DNA of 43,805 nt from an uncultured Prochlorococcus sp. (lineage in GTDB: Bacteria > Cyanobacteriota > Cyanobacteriia > PCC-6307 > Cyanobiaceae). Position numbers and translations under genes: made by a program. The stretch is from positions 1 through 43,805 of the forward strand of contig CACPKH010000010.1 of the NCBI GenBank assembly GCA_902634515.1, read 5' to 3'. The notes under the pieces are model-generated. The model was not told the origin of the DNA and did no database searches. It saw nothing but the letters and a program-made list of their open reading frames with translations. Positions 1-33,687 of the stretch are shown in pieces; positions within the stretch are counted from its first letter, which is position 1; every line of letters starts with the position of its first letter.

Positions 1-1
1 A

Positions 2-1261
2 AGATGGGGAACAATTGTTTTTATGTTCATCATCCATGCTTTAACAATATTTGCTTTGTTACCTAAATTTTGGAGCTGGCAAGCTTTCAGCGCTTTCCTA
101 ATACTTTATTGGGTTACTGCTTGTCTAGGAGTGACACTTGGTTATCACAGGCTGTTATCACATCGTTCATTTAAAGTACCTAGGTGGCTTGAAAGATTTT
201 TTGCTAAGGTTTTAGGGGCTGAGAAAGCAGCTGTAAGAATGCAGTTTGTCAGTGGAACGCATTCTATTGCTGCTTCAATGTTTGGTGCATTAAGACCAGG
301 AGATAATCTGCTATCAATTACAGGAACACCATATGCAACATTGGAAGAAGTGATTGGAATTAGAGGATCTGGGCAAGGCTCTTTGATCGATTTTGGTATA
401 AACTATGATGAGGTATCAATATTCCAGAAAGGATATTTAGATTTAAATGTTTTAGAAAATGCCTTAAAAAGACCTAGGAAAATGATATTTATTCAAAGAA
501 GTTGTGGCTATACTTGGAGACCTTCTTTATCTATTAATGATATAGAGATTGTATGTCAATGTGTCCATGCAATGCAACCTGATTGTGTTTGTTTTGTGGA
601 TAATTGCTATGGAGAGTTTGTTGAAGCTCAGGAACCTACCCAAGTAGGGGCAGATTTGATGGCAGGTTCTTTATTAAAGAATCCAGGAGGAACGATTGTT
701 CCTGTAGGTGGTTATATAGCAGGAAAAATTGATTTAGTGGAGAAAGCTTGTTGCCGACTTACTTCACCAGGGATAGGTAGTCAGGGAGGATCAAATTTAG
801 ATTTGAATAGATTGATTTTGCAAGGATTATTTCTAGCTCCTCAAATGGTTGCAGAATCTTTGATTGGTGCAGAACTTATTTGTTCAGTTTTTTATAAACT
901 TGGATTTGATGTGAATCCTTTACCAGGTAAAAATCGTAGTGATTTAATTCAATCAGTTTGTTTTGGAACTCCTGAAGCTTTGAAAATAGTTTGCACTGCT
1001 TTTCAACTTTCTTCTCCAGTTGGTTCTTATTTAGAACCAACCCCTTCTGGAATGCCAGGTTATAAAGAAGATTTGATAATGGCAGGAGGAACATTTGTTG
1101 ATGGGAGCACTAGTGAGTTTTCTGCGGATGGACCATTAATTTCTCCTTTTAATCTTTATATACAGGGTGGAACGCATCGCTCTCATATTAAAATTGCTAT
1201 TATTAGGGCTCTTGTTTTGCTTATGCAGGCAGACTTAGTTCATGTCCCTAAGACTTTGTAA
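2..1261 (+). CDS. Chimeric ORF: acyl desaturase N-terminus fused to methionine-gamma-lyase-like PLP protein (5' partial)
   Basis: The reading frame is open to the left edge (R-W-G-T-I-V-F before the ATG at 23), so the true start lies outside the window. Residues 1 to about 60, counted from that ATG, match the start of a membrane acyl-CoA/acyl-lipid delta-9 desaturase: hydrophobic helices, then YHRLLSHRSF, which contains the first histidine box (HX4H). The second and third histidine boxes are absent. From about residue 61 (AKVLGAEKAAVRMQFVSGTH) to the end the protein matches the methionine gamma-lyase/'aluminium resistance' fold-type I PLP family. Its likely PLP lysine is K219 in SLLKNPGG. About 60 N-terminal residues of that family are missing, including a segment that usually helps build the neighbouring subunit's active site. 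The desaturase half cannot be functional, and the PLP half is probably impaired. This is a deletion fusion or an assembly chimera. gcvH follows 21 bases later on the same strand. Confidence 0.85.
   Translation, partial: RWGTIVFMFIIHALTIFALLPKFWSWQAFSAFLILYWVTACLGVTLGYHRLLSHRSFKVPRWLERFFAKVLGAEKAAVRMQFVSGTHSIAASMFGALRPGDNLLSITGTPYATLEEVIGIRGSGQGSLIDFGINYDEVSIFQKGYLDLNVLENALKRPRKMIFIQRSCGYTWRPSLSINDIEIVCQCVHAMQPDCVCFVDNCYGEFVEAQEPTQVGADLMAGSLLKNPGGTIVPVGGYIAGKIDLVEKACCRLTSPGIGSQGGSNLDLNRLILQGLFLAPQMVAESLIGAELICSVFYKLGFDVNPLPGKNRSDLIQSVCFGTPEALKIVCTAFQLSSPVGSYLEPTPSGMPGYKEDLIMAGGTFVDGSTSEFSADGPLISPFNLYIQGGTHRSHIKIAIIRALVLLMQADLVHVPKTL
194..208 (+). other. Junction between the desaturase-like and PLP-enzyme-like parts
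   Basis: The change of homology falls in the codons for R-F-F-A-K. Desaturases of this type read W-L-E-R-F-F-A before continuing toward their second histidine box. The PLP family usually reads R-[VI]-F-A-K/R-V-L-G-A-E at this place. The short shared R-x-F-A stretch, AT-rich at DNA level, would serve as a microhomology for a deletion between two neighbouring genes or for a false overlap in assembly. The position is inferred from family memory, not from an alignment. Confidence 0.6.
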
Positions 1262-1282
1262 ACATTATTTGGCCCCTCATTA

Positions 1283-1672
1283 ATGGCCTTCAACTTTCCC
1301 AAACAATTTCGCTTCGCCGACAGTCATGAATATGCTTCGTTTGAAGGAGAATTAGTTCGTATTGGCATTAGTGCATATGCTGTTGATCAGCTTGGCGACA
1401 TAGTTTTTGTTGATCTTCCAGAAGTAGGAACTTCCTTGAATAGAGGGAATCCTTTTGGCTCAGTTGAGTCAGTGAAAGCAGTTGAGGAAATGTTTTTACC
1501 TATCAGTGGCGAAGTAATAGAAAGAAATGAAACAGTCTTGTCTAACCCTGAGGAATTACAAAACGATCCTCACGGGAAGGGATGGTTATTACTTGTGCGT
1601 CCTCTTGAAAATTCAGAAATTAATGAATTGATGGATTCTGAAGCATATTCAACTAAAATTTCAGCAATTTAA
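1283..1672 (+). CDS. gcvH: Glycine cleavage system H protein
   Basis: GcvH is the lipoyl carrier of the glycine cleavage complex. It receives the aminomethyl group from the P protein and passes it to the T and L proteins. At 129 residues it has the normal family length. The lipoylation site is visible as E-S-V-K-A-V, with K65 the modified lysine, preceded by G-D-I-V-F-V-D-L-P, typical of the family. The ATG start gives the usual N-terminus just before F-A-D-S-H-E-Y. It lies 78 bases upstream of gcvP on the same strand, so the two are probably co-transcribed. gcvT and the L-protein gene are not in the window. In a cyanobacterium the complex recycles photorespiratory glycine and feeds one-carbon metabolism. 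Confidence 0.97.
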   Translation: MAFNFPKQFRFADSHEYASFEGELVRIGISAYAVDQLGDIVFVDLPEVGTSLNRGNPFGSVESVKAVEEMFLPISGEVIERNETVLSNPEELQNDPHGKGWLLLVRPLENSEINELMDSEAYSTKISAI

Positions 1673-1750
1673 AAAATGCATTTATCTAGTTTTAACTTTA
1701 AAAAGTTTTTTCCTATCTAAACTATTTCTTTCAAACTTAAAAAAGATTAG

Positions 1751-4651
1751 ATGAACGAAAAAAAAAAGAATTCTGAAGAGTTTATAGGCCGTCATATTGG
1801 AATTAACCAATTTGATCAAGAGTTAATGCTTAAATCTTTAAATTATAAAGATCTAGATAAATTTATCTCTGATGTAATTCCTAATGAAATTTTTGAAACT
1901 AACCTTTCAAATAAGGATATGCCTCAGGGATGCAATGAGATAGAGGCTTTAGAAGAGTTAAATACAATTGCCCGAAAAAATATTATGAATCGTTCTTTAA
2001 TAGGGCTTGGATACTATGGGACCTCAACACCAATAGTAGTTAAGAGAAATGTTTTAGAAAATCCTTGTTGGTATTCATCATATACTCCATATCAGGCTGA
2101 AATTTCTCAAGGTAGATTAGAAGCATTATTTAATTTTCAAACTTTAATAACTGAACTTACTGGCTTACCTGTTGCTAATGCCTCTTTGTTAGATGAGGGA
2201 ACTGCCGCAGCAGAAGCAATGAGTTTGTCGTTTTCGGCTGCAACAAATAAGAACGCAAGAATTTTTATGGTAGATAAATTGGTTTTTCCTCAAACCTTAG
2301 ATGTTTTAGAGACTAGAGCTAAACCTTTGAATATTGTAGTGAAAGAATTCGATATAAATAAATTAGAGATAAATGATGACGTTTTTGGAATTCTTATACA
2401 AATGCCTGGTTCTAATGGAAGAGTTTGTAATCCATTAAATGCAATTTTAAAGGCTCAAAAAGTAGGAGCTTTAGTTACAGTCGCTATAGACCCATTAGCT
2501 CAAGTTTTGTTGAGACCAGTTGGTGAACTTGGTGCGGATATTGCTATTGGTAGTGCTCAGCGCTTTGGGGTTCCAATGGGATTTGGTGGTCCTCATGCAG
2601 CTTTTTTTGCAACAAAAAAAGTTTTTCAAAGACAAGTTCCTGGAAGGATAGTTGGGCAATCGGTTGATAGGAATAAGAATCAAGCCCTGCGCTTGGCTCT
2701 GCAGACTAGAGAACAACATATTCGAAGGGATAAAGCAACGAGCAATATTTGTACAGCTCAAGTTTTATTAGCTGTAATAGCTTCTTTTTATGCTGTTTTC
2801 TTTGGGCCAGATGGTTTAGAAGAAATAGCTAAAAGAGTTTTGAAATACCGTATGAAACTTGAGCATTATTTAAGGCATTTAGATTATCCAATAGACTCAA
2901 TTAGCAGGTTTGATACTATTGAAGTTTATTGCTCTGAGGCGCCTAATATTCATAAGCTTGCAAAATTAGAATCAATTAACCTGCGGATTTTACCTTTAGG
3001 CTCTTCAATTTCACATGCTGGTGGTTTTGGTATTTCTTTAGATGAATTAACAACTGATAATGAACTTAATATTCTTTATAAAATCCTTGCTAGTGCAAAA
3101 GGTAGATCAAGTAACTTGCCTAAAGATATTGATTTGCAATCTGAGTCTTTTTTGAAAGAAGTACCTCTTCGGCAGAAACCTTGGTTGACTCAAAAGGTAT
3201 TTCATAAATATAGATCTGAAACTGAATTATTAAGGTATATAGAGAAATTGGCAAATAAAGATTTTTCTCTCACTAATGGAATGATTCCTTTAGGTAGTTG
3301 CACTATGAAACTAAATTCGGCAGCTGAATTAGTACCTATTAGTTGGAAAGAATTTGCCTCATTGCATCCATTTATTCCTTCTGAACAGTCATATGGCTAT
3401 AAAAAAATAATTAATGATTTGCAAGATTGGCTTGGATACCTGACTGGTTTTCAAGGTGTTTCTTTACAACCAAACGCAGGATCTCAAGGAGAATATGCTG
3501 GACTTCTTGTTATTCGTGCGTGGCATAAATCCAGAGGTGAAGGCAATAGGAATATTTGTTTAATTCCTACTAGTGCTCATGGTACAAATCCAGCTAGTGC
3601 AGTTATGGCTGGTTTCAAAGTAGTAACTGTTAATTGTGATAGTCACGGTAATATCGACATTCATGATTTAAAGAAAAAAGTTGAAAATCATTCTGCAGAA
3701 TTAGCAGCTTTCATGGTCACTTATCCATCAACTCATGGTGTATTTGAACCTAATATTTCTCAGATTGCTTCGTTCGTTCATGAACATGGCGGACAAGTTT
3801 ATTTGGATGGTGCAAATTTAAATGCTCAGGTTGGTCTGTGTAGACCTGGAATGTATGGAGCTGATGTATGTCATTTAAACTTGCATAAAACTTTTTGCAT
3901 TCCTCATGGGGGAGGAGGCCCTGGAGTAGGACCAATTGCCGTCGCTAAACATTTAGTCCCTTATTTACCGGGTCATTGTTTTGAAAATTCTAAAGAAATT
4001 GATCAAATAGGTTCAATTGCATCTGCCCCATTTGGAAGTGCAAGTATTTTGCCTATTAGTTGGATGTATATACGAATGATGGGTTTGCAGGGTTTACGCA
4101 AGGCAAGCTCTATAGCAATTTTGTCTGCAAATTATATTGCGCATCGTCTTAATGATTTTTATCCAGTTTTATTTAAAGGATTAAATCAAAAAGTAGCTCA
4201 TGAGTGCATTTTGGATTTAAGACAAATAAAAACAAAGACAGGTATTGAAGTTGATGATATTGCAAAGAGACTTATGGATTATGGATTTCATGCCCCTACA
4301 GTAAGTTGGCCAGTGGCTGGCACACTAATGGTAGAACCTACAGAGAGTGAAAGTCTTTTAGAATTGGATCGTTTTTGCGATGCCATGATTTCTATATGGC
4401 ATGAAATACATGCTATTGAATTGGGTGAGGTTGATAAATCTAATAATCTTTTGAAAAATGCTCCTCATACTTTAGAGATGATTACTACAGATAGTTGGGA
4501 AAGACCATATTCTCGCCATCAAGCAGCATTTCCATTAGTAGATCAGATTGAAAACAAGTTTTGGCCTGCAGTTGCAAGAATAGATAATGCTTTTGGCGAT
4601 AGAAATTTAGTTTGCACTTGCGATCCAATAGAGGAATATGTTCGTGATTAG
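1751..4651 (+). CDS. gcvP: Glycine dehydrogenase (decarboxylating), P protein
   Basis: GcvP is the PLP-dependent decarboxylase of the glycine cleavage complex. It releases CO2 from glycine and loads the aminomethyl group onto GcvH. At 966 residues it is the long, undivided form typical of cyanobacteria and Proteobacteria. The N-terminal half begins F-I-G-R-H-I-G. The C-terminal half carries the PLP site [15 protein letters not shown], with K713 the expected Schiff-base lysine. The start is poor in ribosome-binding signal. Codons 3-6 contain ten consecutive A bases (1758-1767), an unusually slippery tract at the start of a long essential-type gene. It is downstream of gcvH and probably shares its transcript. 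No glycine riboswitch is recognisable in the 78-base gap. Confidence 0.97.
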
Positions 4652-4727
4652 TTGTGTCTTCCTACTAGCGTGTTTCCGATTTAATAGTTAAGTTTTCAGC
4701 GAATACCATTTTTTGGTTTTAACTTGC

Positions 4728-4760
4728 TGCATTAATTAATCAAAGCATTTTTTTAATGCA
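4728..4760. repeat. Perfect 8-bp inverted repeat upstream of the small hypothetical gene
   Basis: The arms TGCATTAA (4728-4735) and TTAATGCA (4753-4760) are exact reverse complements separated by 17 bases. The second arm directly abuts an in-frame GTG (4761) and lies 24 bases before the preferred ATG of the next gene. It could be an operator-like dyad or a 5'-leader hairpin. There is no T tract of the sort expected for a terminator of gcvP. Function is unproven. Confidence 0.4.
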
Positions 4761-4784
4761 GTGTTTCACATCGCTTGGGGAAAG

Positions 4785-5045
4785 ATGTTGAAAGACATTT
4801 CTGGGACAAAATCATCGGATTTAATTGCCAAAGAAGAGGTCAGCTTACCTTTTGATTCCAATACTATTGATTCTGCTCTTAGTAAGGGTAAGTTGCTTCA
4901 AGTTGATGGTACGAATGTGTTAAGAGTGCCTTTTGGAGTTAGACAACCTAGAAGGAAGAGACCAAATAGGCCAGAAAGATGGGCAACTTTAGTCTTACCT
5001 TTTCAACCTCTGGGATCACCAACTCCTCCTCCTCAGGCAGCTTGA
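4785..5045 (+). CDS. Small hypothetical protein with basic Pro/Arg-rich C-terminal half
   Basis: I do not recognise a named family. From the ATG the product has 86 residues. The N-terminal half is acidic to neutral, followed by a basic core V-R-Q-P-R-R-K-R-P-N-R-P-E-R-W and a proline-rich tail ending P-P-P-Q-A-A. There are no cysteines, no signal peptide and no membrane helix. The basic core could bind nucleic acid, but that is a guess. The ATG at 4785 is preferred because GGGGAAAG lies just before it; an in-frame GTG at 4761 would add eight residues. Codon use resembles the neighbours. Its end faces sqdX with a 4-base gap, and both stop codons sit in one inverted repeat. Confidence 0.7.
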   Translation: MLKDISGTKSSDLIAKEEVSLPFDSNTIDSALSKGKLLQVDGTNVLRVPFGVRQPRRKRPNRPERWATLVLPFQPLGSPTPPPQAA

Positions 5046-5058
5046 GTATCTAAGCTGC
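5037..5058. terminator. Palindrome spanning both stop codons of the hypothetical gene and sqdX
   Basis: GCAGCTT (5037-5043) pairs with AAGCTGC (5052-5058) around an 8-base loop. The + arm encodes Ala-Ala and begins the stop of the small gene. The - arm encodes Ala-Ala and begins the stop of sqdX. It is a plausible bidirectional 3'-end hairpin, though there is no clear T tract. Confidence 0.45.
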
Positions 5059-6201
5059 AACGTTTGAAGATTGTTCTTTAGTCAGTATTTCGCGATAAAA
5101 AGCTCTTAATTGTTCAGTAGCACTAGCCCAACCCCATTTCTCGGCCTCTATTCTTGCTGCATTTCTCATTGATTGACGCTCTATTTCGTTACCTAGAAGT
5201 TTTTTTGTTGCATTGATTAAGCTTTTGGCCCCTTCATCTTCCCCTTCAGGTTCATAAAGGCATCCATTTATTCCGTCATCAATAATATCTGGTATTCCAC
5301 CCTTATTTGCTCCAACAACGGGGCATCCTGCTGCCATTGCTTCGAGGAGTACAAGCCCTAGGGTCTCGGTACTTGAAGGAAATAGAAATGCATCACCGGA
5401 AGCATATGCACTAGCCAGTTCTTCTCCTGAAAGATATCCAACAAAAGTAGTAGCAGTATTTTCAAAGATTTTCTCAAGTTGTTGCCTATATGGACCATCT
5501 CCAACAAGAGCAAGTCTTGTATTAGGCAAAGCTTCTAGGACAGGCTTTATTCGTTCAATTTGTTTCTCTGCTGAAAGTCTTCCAACATAAATTAATACTG
5601 AACCTTGATCATCAAATGTTCCTAGTAATTTTTTTCTCATTGCATCTTTTCTTAAGTCAGGCCTAAAACTTTCAGTGTCTACTCCTCTTTGCCACAATGC
5701 AGTATTTTGTATGCCTTTTTCGCTTAGTTCTCTAACCATTGCAGTTGAAGTACAAAGATTTAAAGTGGCTTGGTTATGAGCAGCTTTTAATAATTCCCAT
5801 AGAAGTGGCTCCAGCATGCCCATTCCATAATGTTCCAGATATTTAGGCAAATGTGTGTGATAGCTAGCCACTAAGGGAATGCCATTGGTTTTTGCAAGCC
5901 AAATTCCACCTAGGCCAAGAACAGCAGGATTTACAACATGAATCAAATCAGGTTTGAATTTCTCTAGCGTCTCTGAAACTGCTGGACCTGGAAGACCAAG
6001 CTTTAATTCAGGATAAAGAGGTAAAGGCATTGCTGGAACGCCAACAACGGTTGCTCCCATATATTCAGAAGGGCAACCTTCTGGACAAAAGACAACAACT
6101 TCATCACCCGCCTTAGTAAGATTTTCTACTGTTTTGGTAAGCCGAGTAACTATTCCATCTACTTTTGGAAGAAAAGTTTCGGTAAAAAAAGCAATCTTCA
6201 C
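5050..6201 (-). CDS. sqdX: Sulfoquinovosyltransferase (SQDG synthase, GT4 family)
   Basis: SqdX transfers sulfoquinovose from UDP-sulfoquinovose to diacylglycerol, the last step in making the sulfolipid SQDG of thylakoid membranes. The 383-residue protein is a GT-B fold, family 4 glycosyltransferase. The N-terminal acceptor domain begins M-K-I-A-F-F-T-E-T-F-L-P and includes S-Y-H-T-H-L-P-K-Y. The C-terminal nucleotide-sugar domain has Y-V-G-R-L-S-A-E-K and the EX7E motif from E279 to E287 in S-T-E-T-L-G-L-V-L-L-E. It follows sqdB on the same strand with a 36-base gap, so the two sulfolipid genes are almost certainly an operon. The neighbour separates it from generic GT4 enzymes. Confidence 0.95.
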   Translation of the reverse strand: MKIAFFTETFLPKVDGIVTRLTKTVENLTKAGDEVVVFCPEGCPSEYMGATVVGVPAMPLPLYPELKLGLPGPAVSETLEKFKPDLIHVVNPAVLGLGGIWLAKTNGIPLVASYHTHLPKYLEHYGMGMLEPLLWELLKAAHNQATLNLCTSTAMVRELSEKGIQNTALWQRGVDTESFRPDLRKDAMRKKLLGTFDDQGSVLIYVGRLSAEKQIERIKPVLEALPNTRLALVGDGPYRQQLEKIFENTATTFVGYLSGEELASAYASGDAFLFPSSTETLGLVLLEAMAAGCPVVGANKGGIPDIIDDGINGCLYEPEGEDEGAKSLINATKKLLGNEIERQSMRNAARIEAEKWGWASATEQLRAFYREILTKEQSSNVAA

Positions 6202-16073: not shown

Positions 16074-16724
16074 TTAGTTGGTGGCTGAAATTATTTTGTC
16101 TATCAGGCCATATTCAACCGCTTCTTGCGGCGAAAGGAAGTGGTCTCTGTCCGTGTCTTCAGAAATTTTCTCAATAGGTTGACCAGTATTTTCTGCGAGA
16201 AGTCCATTTAAGGTTTCTTTTAAGAACAAAATTTCTTTTGCTTGGATTTCTATTTCCACAGCTTGGCCTTGTGCTCCGCCTAGTGGTTGATGAATCATGA
16301 TTCTGGAATTTGGGAGAGCAATTCTTTTGCCTTTTGTTCCTCCAGCTAATAAAAAAGCTCCCATACTTGCCGCAAGTCCATAGCAAATTGTCACAACATC
16401 TGGAGTGACTTGTTGGATGGTGTCATATATAGCTAGTCCTGCTGTGACAGAACCGCCTGGAGAATTTATGTAGAGCTGGATATCTTTTTCAGGATCATCT
16501 GCTTCAAGAAAAAGCATTTGAGCAACTAAGGAATCAGCCACTTGGTCATTAACATCAGTACCTAGAAAAATTATTCTTTCTCTTAAAAGACGGGAATAAA
16601 TATCAAAAGCTCTATCTCCTCTTCCAGATTGCTCAACCACTGTAGGGAGAATAGTAGACATAGATATTGGAAATGTCCCTTCCCAACGATTCTTTATTGG
16701 ATGATTGCAGTTGGCTTGGATCAC
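16074..16724 (-). CDS. clpP: ATP-dependent Clp protease proteolytic subunit
   Basis: ClpP is the serine peptidase that forms the degradation chamber used by ClpX. Numbered from the GTG start, the catalytic triad is S120 (G-L-A-A-S-M-G), H145 (M-I-H-Q-P-L) and D194 (T-D-R-D), with the spacing known from other ClpP proteins. I-N-S-P-G-G-S-V at 86-93 forms the substrate groove. The product is 216 residues from GTG 16724; an ATG at 16661 would remove 21 residues. The longer form resembles what I recall from marine picocyanobacterial ClpP proteins and may include a propeptide. It lies between tig and clpX. Cyanobacteria have several ClpP paralogues; this one is the copy paired with clpX. Confidence 0.97.
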
Positions 16725-33615: not shown

Positions 33616-33687
33616 GCGGATGTAGCTCAGTGGTAGAGCATCTCCTTGCCAAGGAGAGGGTCGAGAGTTCGAATCTCTTCATCCGCT
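33616..33687 (+). tRNA. tRNA-Gly (anticodon GCC)
   Basis: A 72-base cloverleaf is visible. The acceptor stem GCGGATG pairs with CATCCGC over seven base pairs. The D-loop region reads AGCTCAGTGGTAGAGC. The anticodon stem CTCCT/AGGAG encloses TTGCCAA with GCC at its centre. The T arm is GAGAG-TTCGAAT-CTCTT. The discriminator base is U, as expected for bacterial tRNA-Gly. CCA is not encoded, so it must be added after transcription. It lies 89 bases past ribH. Confidence 0.97.

Follow-up and report, generated by a model that had tools for sequence, protein, structure and literature searches.

A reading frame joining a desaturase gene piece to a Met_gamma_lyase-family gene at a Prochlorococcus contig end is very probably an inverted amplification chimera

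INTRODUCTION

Does a reading frame that runs from a piece of a membrane desaturase without interruption into a PLP enzyme encode a fusion protein of a Prochlorococcus cell, or was the frame made in the laboratory? It is found at the beginning of the window, the stretch of 43,805 b analyzed here, which is the whole of contig C10 of assembly G000, so that base 1 is a contig end. The assembly has 1.19 Mb in 41 contigs, the smallest of 2,088 b, and is about 66% complete by estimate.

RESULTS

Two genes in one frame at the contig end

Reading of the window for open reading frames gave a single frame of 419 codons at positions 2 to 1261 (+), which is open from the window edge. A preliminary description of this DNA had reported two unrelated genes joined in frame, and the frame is indeed open across the join and to the edge. 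The features around the join are as follows.

1..205, +: part of a fatty-acid desaturase gene in inverted orientation, matching residues ~46 to 113 of the 311-residue congener protein (L007/L008, by blastn and tblastn)
198..206, +: breakpoint interval, sequence common to both parents (8 relatives compared base by base)
207..1261, +: Met_gamma_lyase-family (“aluminium resistance”) gene, its C-terminal ~350 codons (PF06838 match; alignment to L007 5371-6666)
1283-1672, +: gcvH-like gene, normal flank (synteny with relatives)
1751-4651, +: gcvP-like gene, normal flank (synteny with relatives)

Downstream of the lyase gene, the gcvH-like and the gcvP-like genes (1283..4651, +) follow in the order and orientation found in the relatives. 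The names gcvH, gcvP, dnaB and rplI were assigned by reading the translations. The sole RNA gene found in the window is an ordinary tRNA-Gly (GCC) at 33616-33687.

Residues 1 to about 68 of the frame are 80 to 85% identical to the desaturase of both congeners, G001 and G002, and include the first histidine box (HRLLSH). In the relatives, the full gene matches PF00487 (FA_desaturase). The likeness of the window piece to this Prochlorococcus membrane desaturase ends with these 68 residues, whereas the first ~45 and the last ~200 residues of the 311-residue protein are missing, the second and the third histidine box are absent, and the piece is reversed with respect to the neighboring genes. A functional membrane fatty-acid desaturase has three histidine boxes, and the window piece has one, as had been recognized in the preliminary description.

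Residues 63 to 404 match PF06838 (Met_gamma_lyase) with an E value of 5.8e-147 at model positions 60 to 401 of 405, and residues 63 to 419 align end to end with the C-terminal ~350 residues of the “aluminium resistance” PLP proteins of this family, which are intact in the relatives as open frames of 426 to 446 aa. The difference lies at the N terminus, which is replaced in the window by the inverted desaturase piece. The preliminary assignment to this PLP family stands, but its loss of about 60 residues is the figure of the Pfam model, and about 80 residues are absent in comparison to the 431-aa congener protein.

Opposite orientation of the parent genes in the relatives

In congener G002, window positions 1-204 correspond to L007 4430..4227 in reversed orientation and positions 189-6000 to L007 5594..11408 in forward orientation, which leaves a distance of ~1.37 kb skipped between the two breakpoints in L007. 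Congener G001 (L008) has the same layout. The desaturase and the lyase occur together in 63 loci of the relatives (46 distinct lyase sequences, closed genomes among them), and in each of these loci they are encoded on opposite strands. The usual order is dnaB, rplI and the desaturase on one strand and a gene of ~240 aa, the lyase, gcvH and gcvP on the other. The fused gene was absent among the matches listed from 201 family genomes and from 41 loci examined. Relatives have two separate genes, just as had been expected at the outset.

With this opposite orientation in every relative examined, a simple deletion is excluded as the source of the fused frame; judged from these alignments, an inversion of the first ~200 bases together with the skip of ~1.37 kb is required. 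This also means that the long-read test initially put forward, a search for 0.8 to 1 kb of extra sequence at the join, was the wrong test.

The ~240-aa gene between desaturase and lyase (L007 4632-5357 and relatives) has no Pfam match and is 58 to 87% identical across the family loci. In several Prochlorococcus and Synechococcus relatives, a second desaturase, 48 to 60% identical to that of the congener, adjoins the lyase on the opposite strand. It is located between the lyase and the ~240-aa gene, about 140 to 270 b from the lyase match (L014, L019, L021-L028, L030-L033, and L035). In other relatives, the gap between the lyase and the main desaturase is ~1.85 kb.

Bases shared at the breakpoint

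The per-base comparison with 8 relatives placed the breakpoint between base 197, which is specific for the desaturase (8 of 8 desaturase but 0 of 8 lyase relatives), and base 207, which is specific for the lyase (0 of 8 desaturase but 7 of 8 lyase relatives). The bases in between, 198-206 (TTTTTGCTA), fit both parents, with TTTTTGC as the surest part and base 205 leaning to the desaturase (3 of 8 versus 0 of 8). The length of the shared stretch, ~7 to 9 bases, is that deduced from these relatives in place of the sequence of the true parents. A short shared sequence at the join had already been proposed, and the alignment of both halves bears this out. At 35.5% G+C, a shared run of at least 7 bases would be expected at a random join with a frequency of ~7e-4, and this rarity indicates that homology at 198-206 probably guided the join.

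The remainder of the contig and of the assembly

The contig is collinear with the closed genome G078 from ~1,627 kb down to 1,584 kb, in a comparison that covered the reference on either side of 1,600-1,620.5 kb, and only window positions 1-205 run in the opposite direction. Window positions 16086-16655 have their best G078 match (70% identity) far off at ~737.5 kb; the collinear G078 stretch is outside the comparison, and the distant match may be just a paralogue.

The whole assembly was searched with the fused region and with the congener stretch from dnaB through rplI, desaturase and intervening gene to the lyase; dnaB, rplI, the intervening gene and the rest of the desaturase were not found. 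A search of the genome for an intact copy of either gene had been recommended in the preliminary description; run on this assembly, it returned only the known piece. Neither a reciprocal inversion joint nor further inverted sequence was found in the assembly. Such a gap would be expected where an incomplete genome is poorly covered, and it does not show that genes were lost.

In a comparison of 81 contig ends with ~95% of the closed relative G078, no second clear inverted join of close segments was found. Contig G000:C34 (5.7 kb; L117, L244, and L156) has a head and a tail in opposite orientations, located ~2.5 to 4.5 kb apart in G078. This contig was not counted as an inverted join, because its head belongs to a multicopy gene family with three reference placements; its layout may stem from a rearrangement, from a paralogue, or from another chimera.

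DISCUSSION

Origin of the join during amplification of a single cell

The two congeners, AG-363-M21 and AG-363-N16, are single-cell amplified genomes of Prochlorococcus. For the AG-363 set, DNA was amplified by multiple displacement amplification (MDA) or WGA-X and assembled with SPAdes, and contigs of >2,000 b were kept (PMC6122165). Judged from these congeners, the completeness of the assembly, and the contig cutoff, with 2,088 b as the smallest contig, we infer that the window also comes from a single-cell genome. Benchmark cultures in the same workflow had 1.5 misassemblies per 100 kb (PMC6122165), which corresponds to ~18 for 1.19 Mb.

Among 475 chimeras from MDA of a single Escherichia coli cell, 406 were inverted, and the segments of 337 of these 406 were <10 kb apart (PMC1855051). 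The joins usually have 2 to 21 complementary nucleotides and an intervening deletion (Lasken and Stockwell 2007, PMC1855051). The window join resembles these chimeras. Its segments are in opposite relative orientation, the second one being inverted, they are located <10 kb apart (~1.37 kb), the intervening sequence including its gene is absent from the assembly, and a priming stretch of 7 to 9 shared bases within the range of 2 to 21 can be deduced from the 8 relatives at 198-206. The join differs in the way it became known, from an assembly compared with relatives instead of reads compared with the genome of the same cell.

The fused frame is very probably an inverted chimera that came from MDA or WGA-X of a single Prochlorococcus cell and was assembled as a contig end. 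A strand made by phi29, reading leftward through the lyase gene, would have been displaced near codon 80. Through the shared bases, its 3' end may have reannealed to another displaced strand close by, which carried the desaturase gene ~1.37 kb away, and synthesis would have continued in the opposite direction, yielding the inverted desaturase segment and the intervening deletion, with the assembly ending ~200 bases past the join. A chimeric assembly had been named as one option in the preliminary description; the inverted layout, the skipped length, the shared bases, the position at the contig end and the absence of the true neighborhood from the assembly favor an origin by amplification. The lack of a second clear chimera of this type at the other contig ends speaks against it.

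A real inversion plus deletion in the chromosome of the cell, which fused both genes and removed the intervening gene, appears improbable. In its favor, the frame runs unbroken through the join, and some biological end-joining leaves microhomology, too, but the open frame is weak evidence because the genes point in the same direction after the inversion and one join in three keeps the frame. Moreover, the fusion is absent among the matches listed from the 201 family genomes, the divergent layout is standard in 63 of 63 loci, and the assembly has no reciprocal joint or further inverted sequence. A natural breakpoint would also seldom be expected ~200 b from a contig end, since the outermost 206 b of the contigs add up to ~1.4% of the assembly. 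It is very improbable that such a cell-specific event made a membrane-anchored PLP lyase with a replaced N terminus and removed a housekeeping desaturase and the neighboring gene in one Prochlorococcus lineage.

If the chimera arose in library preparation or in the assembly instead of in MDA, a short stretch of foreign sequence would equally be left at the end of a contig; this origin is extremely improbable, as the inverted form, the proximity of <10 kb and the shared bases are a specific MDA signature, and an assembly error occurring at random would rarely involve a segment from the opposite strand 1.4 kb away. A direct deletion mediated by microhomology between two genes of one operon, which had been suggested initially and would account for the short shared stretch, has a negligible probability, since a tandem layout of the genes occurs in none of the relatives tested.

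Consequences for Prochlorococcus gene content and annotation

The preliminary description had considered that, if the join were real, this desaturase would be lost from the cell and the PLP protein would be anchored in the membrane. With a genome that is ~66% complete, a region that is not covered, and a join shaped as an amplification chimera, this is unsupported, and no conclusion on the loss of a desaturase or on a new protein is warranted. The join is almost certainly a laboratory artefact, and the cell is not expected to make a fused protein. When a single-cell contig ends in an in-frame “fusion gene”, automatic annotation can take it for a chimeric protein, which calls for caution. The orientation of the parent genes in the relatives provides a quick test that distinguishes inverted amplification chimeras from deletions.
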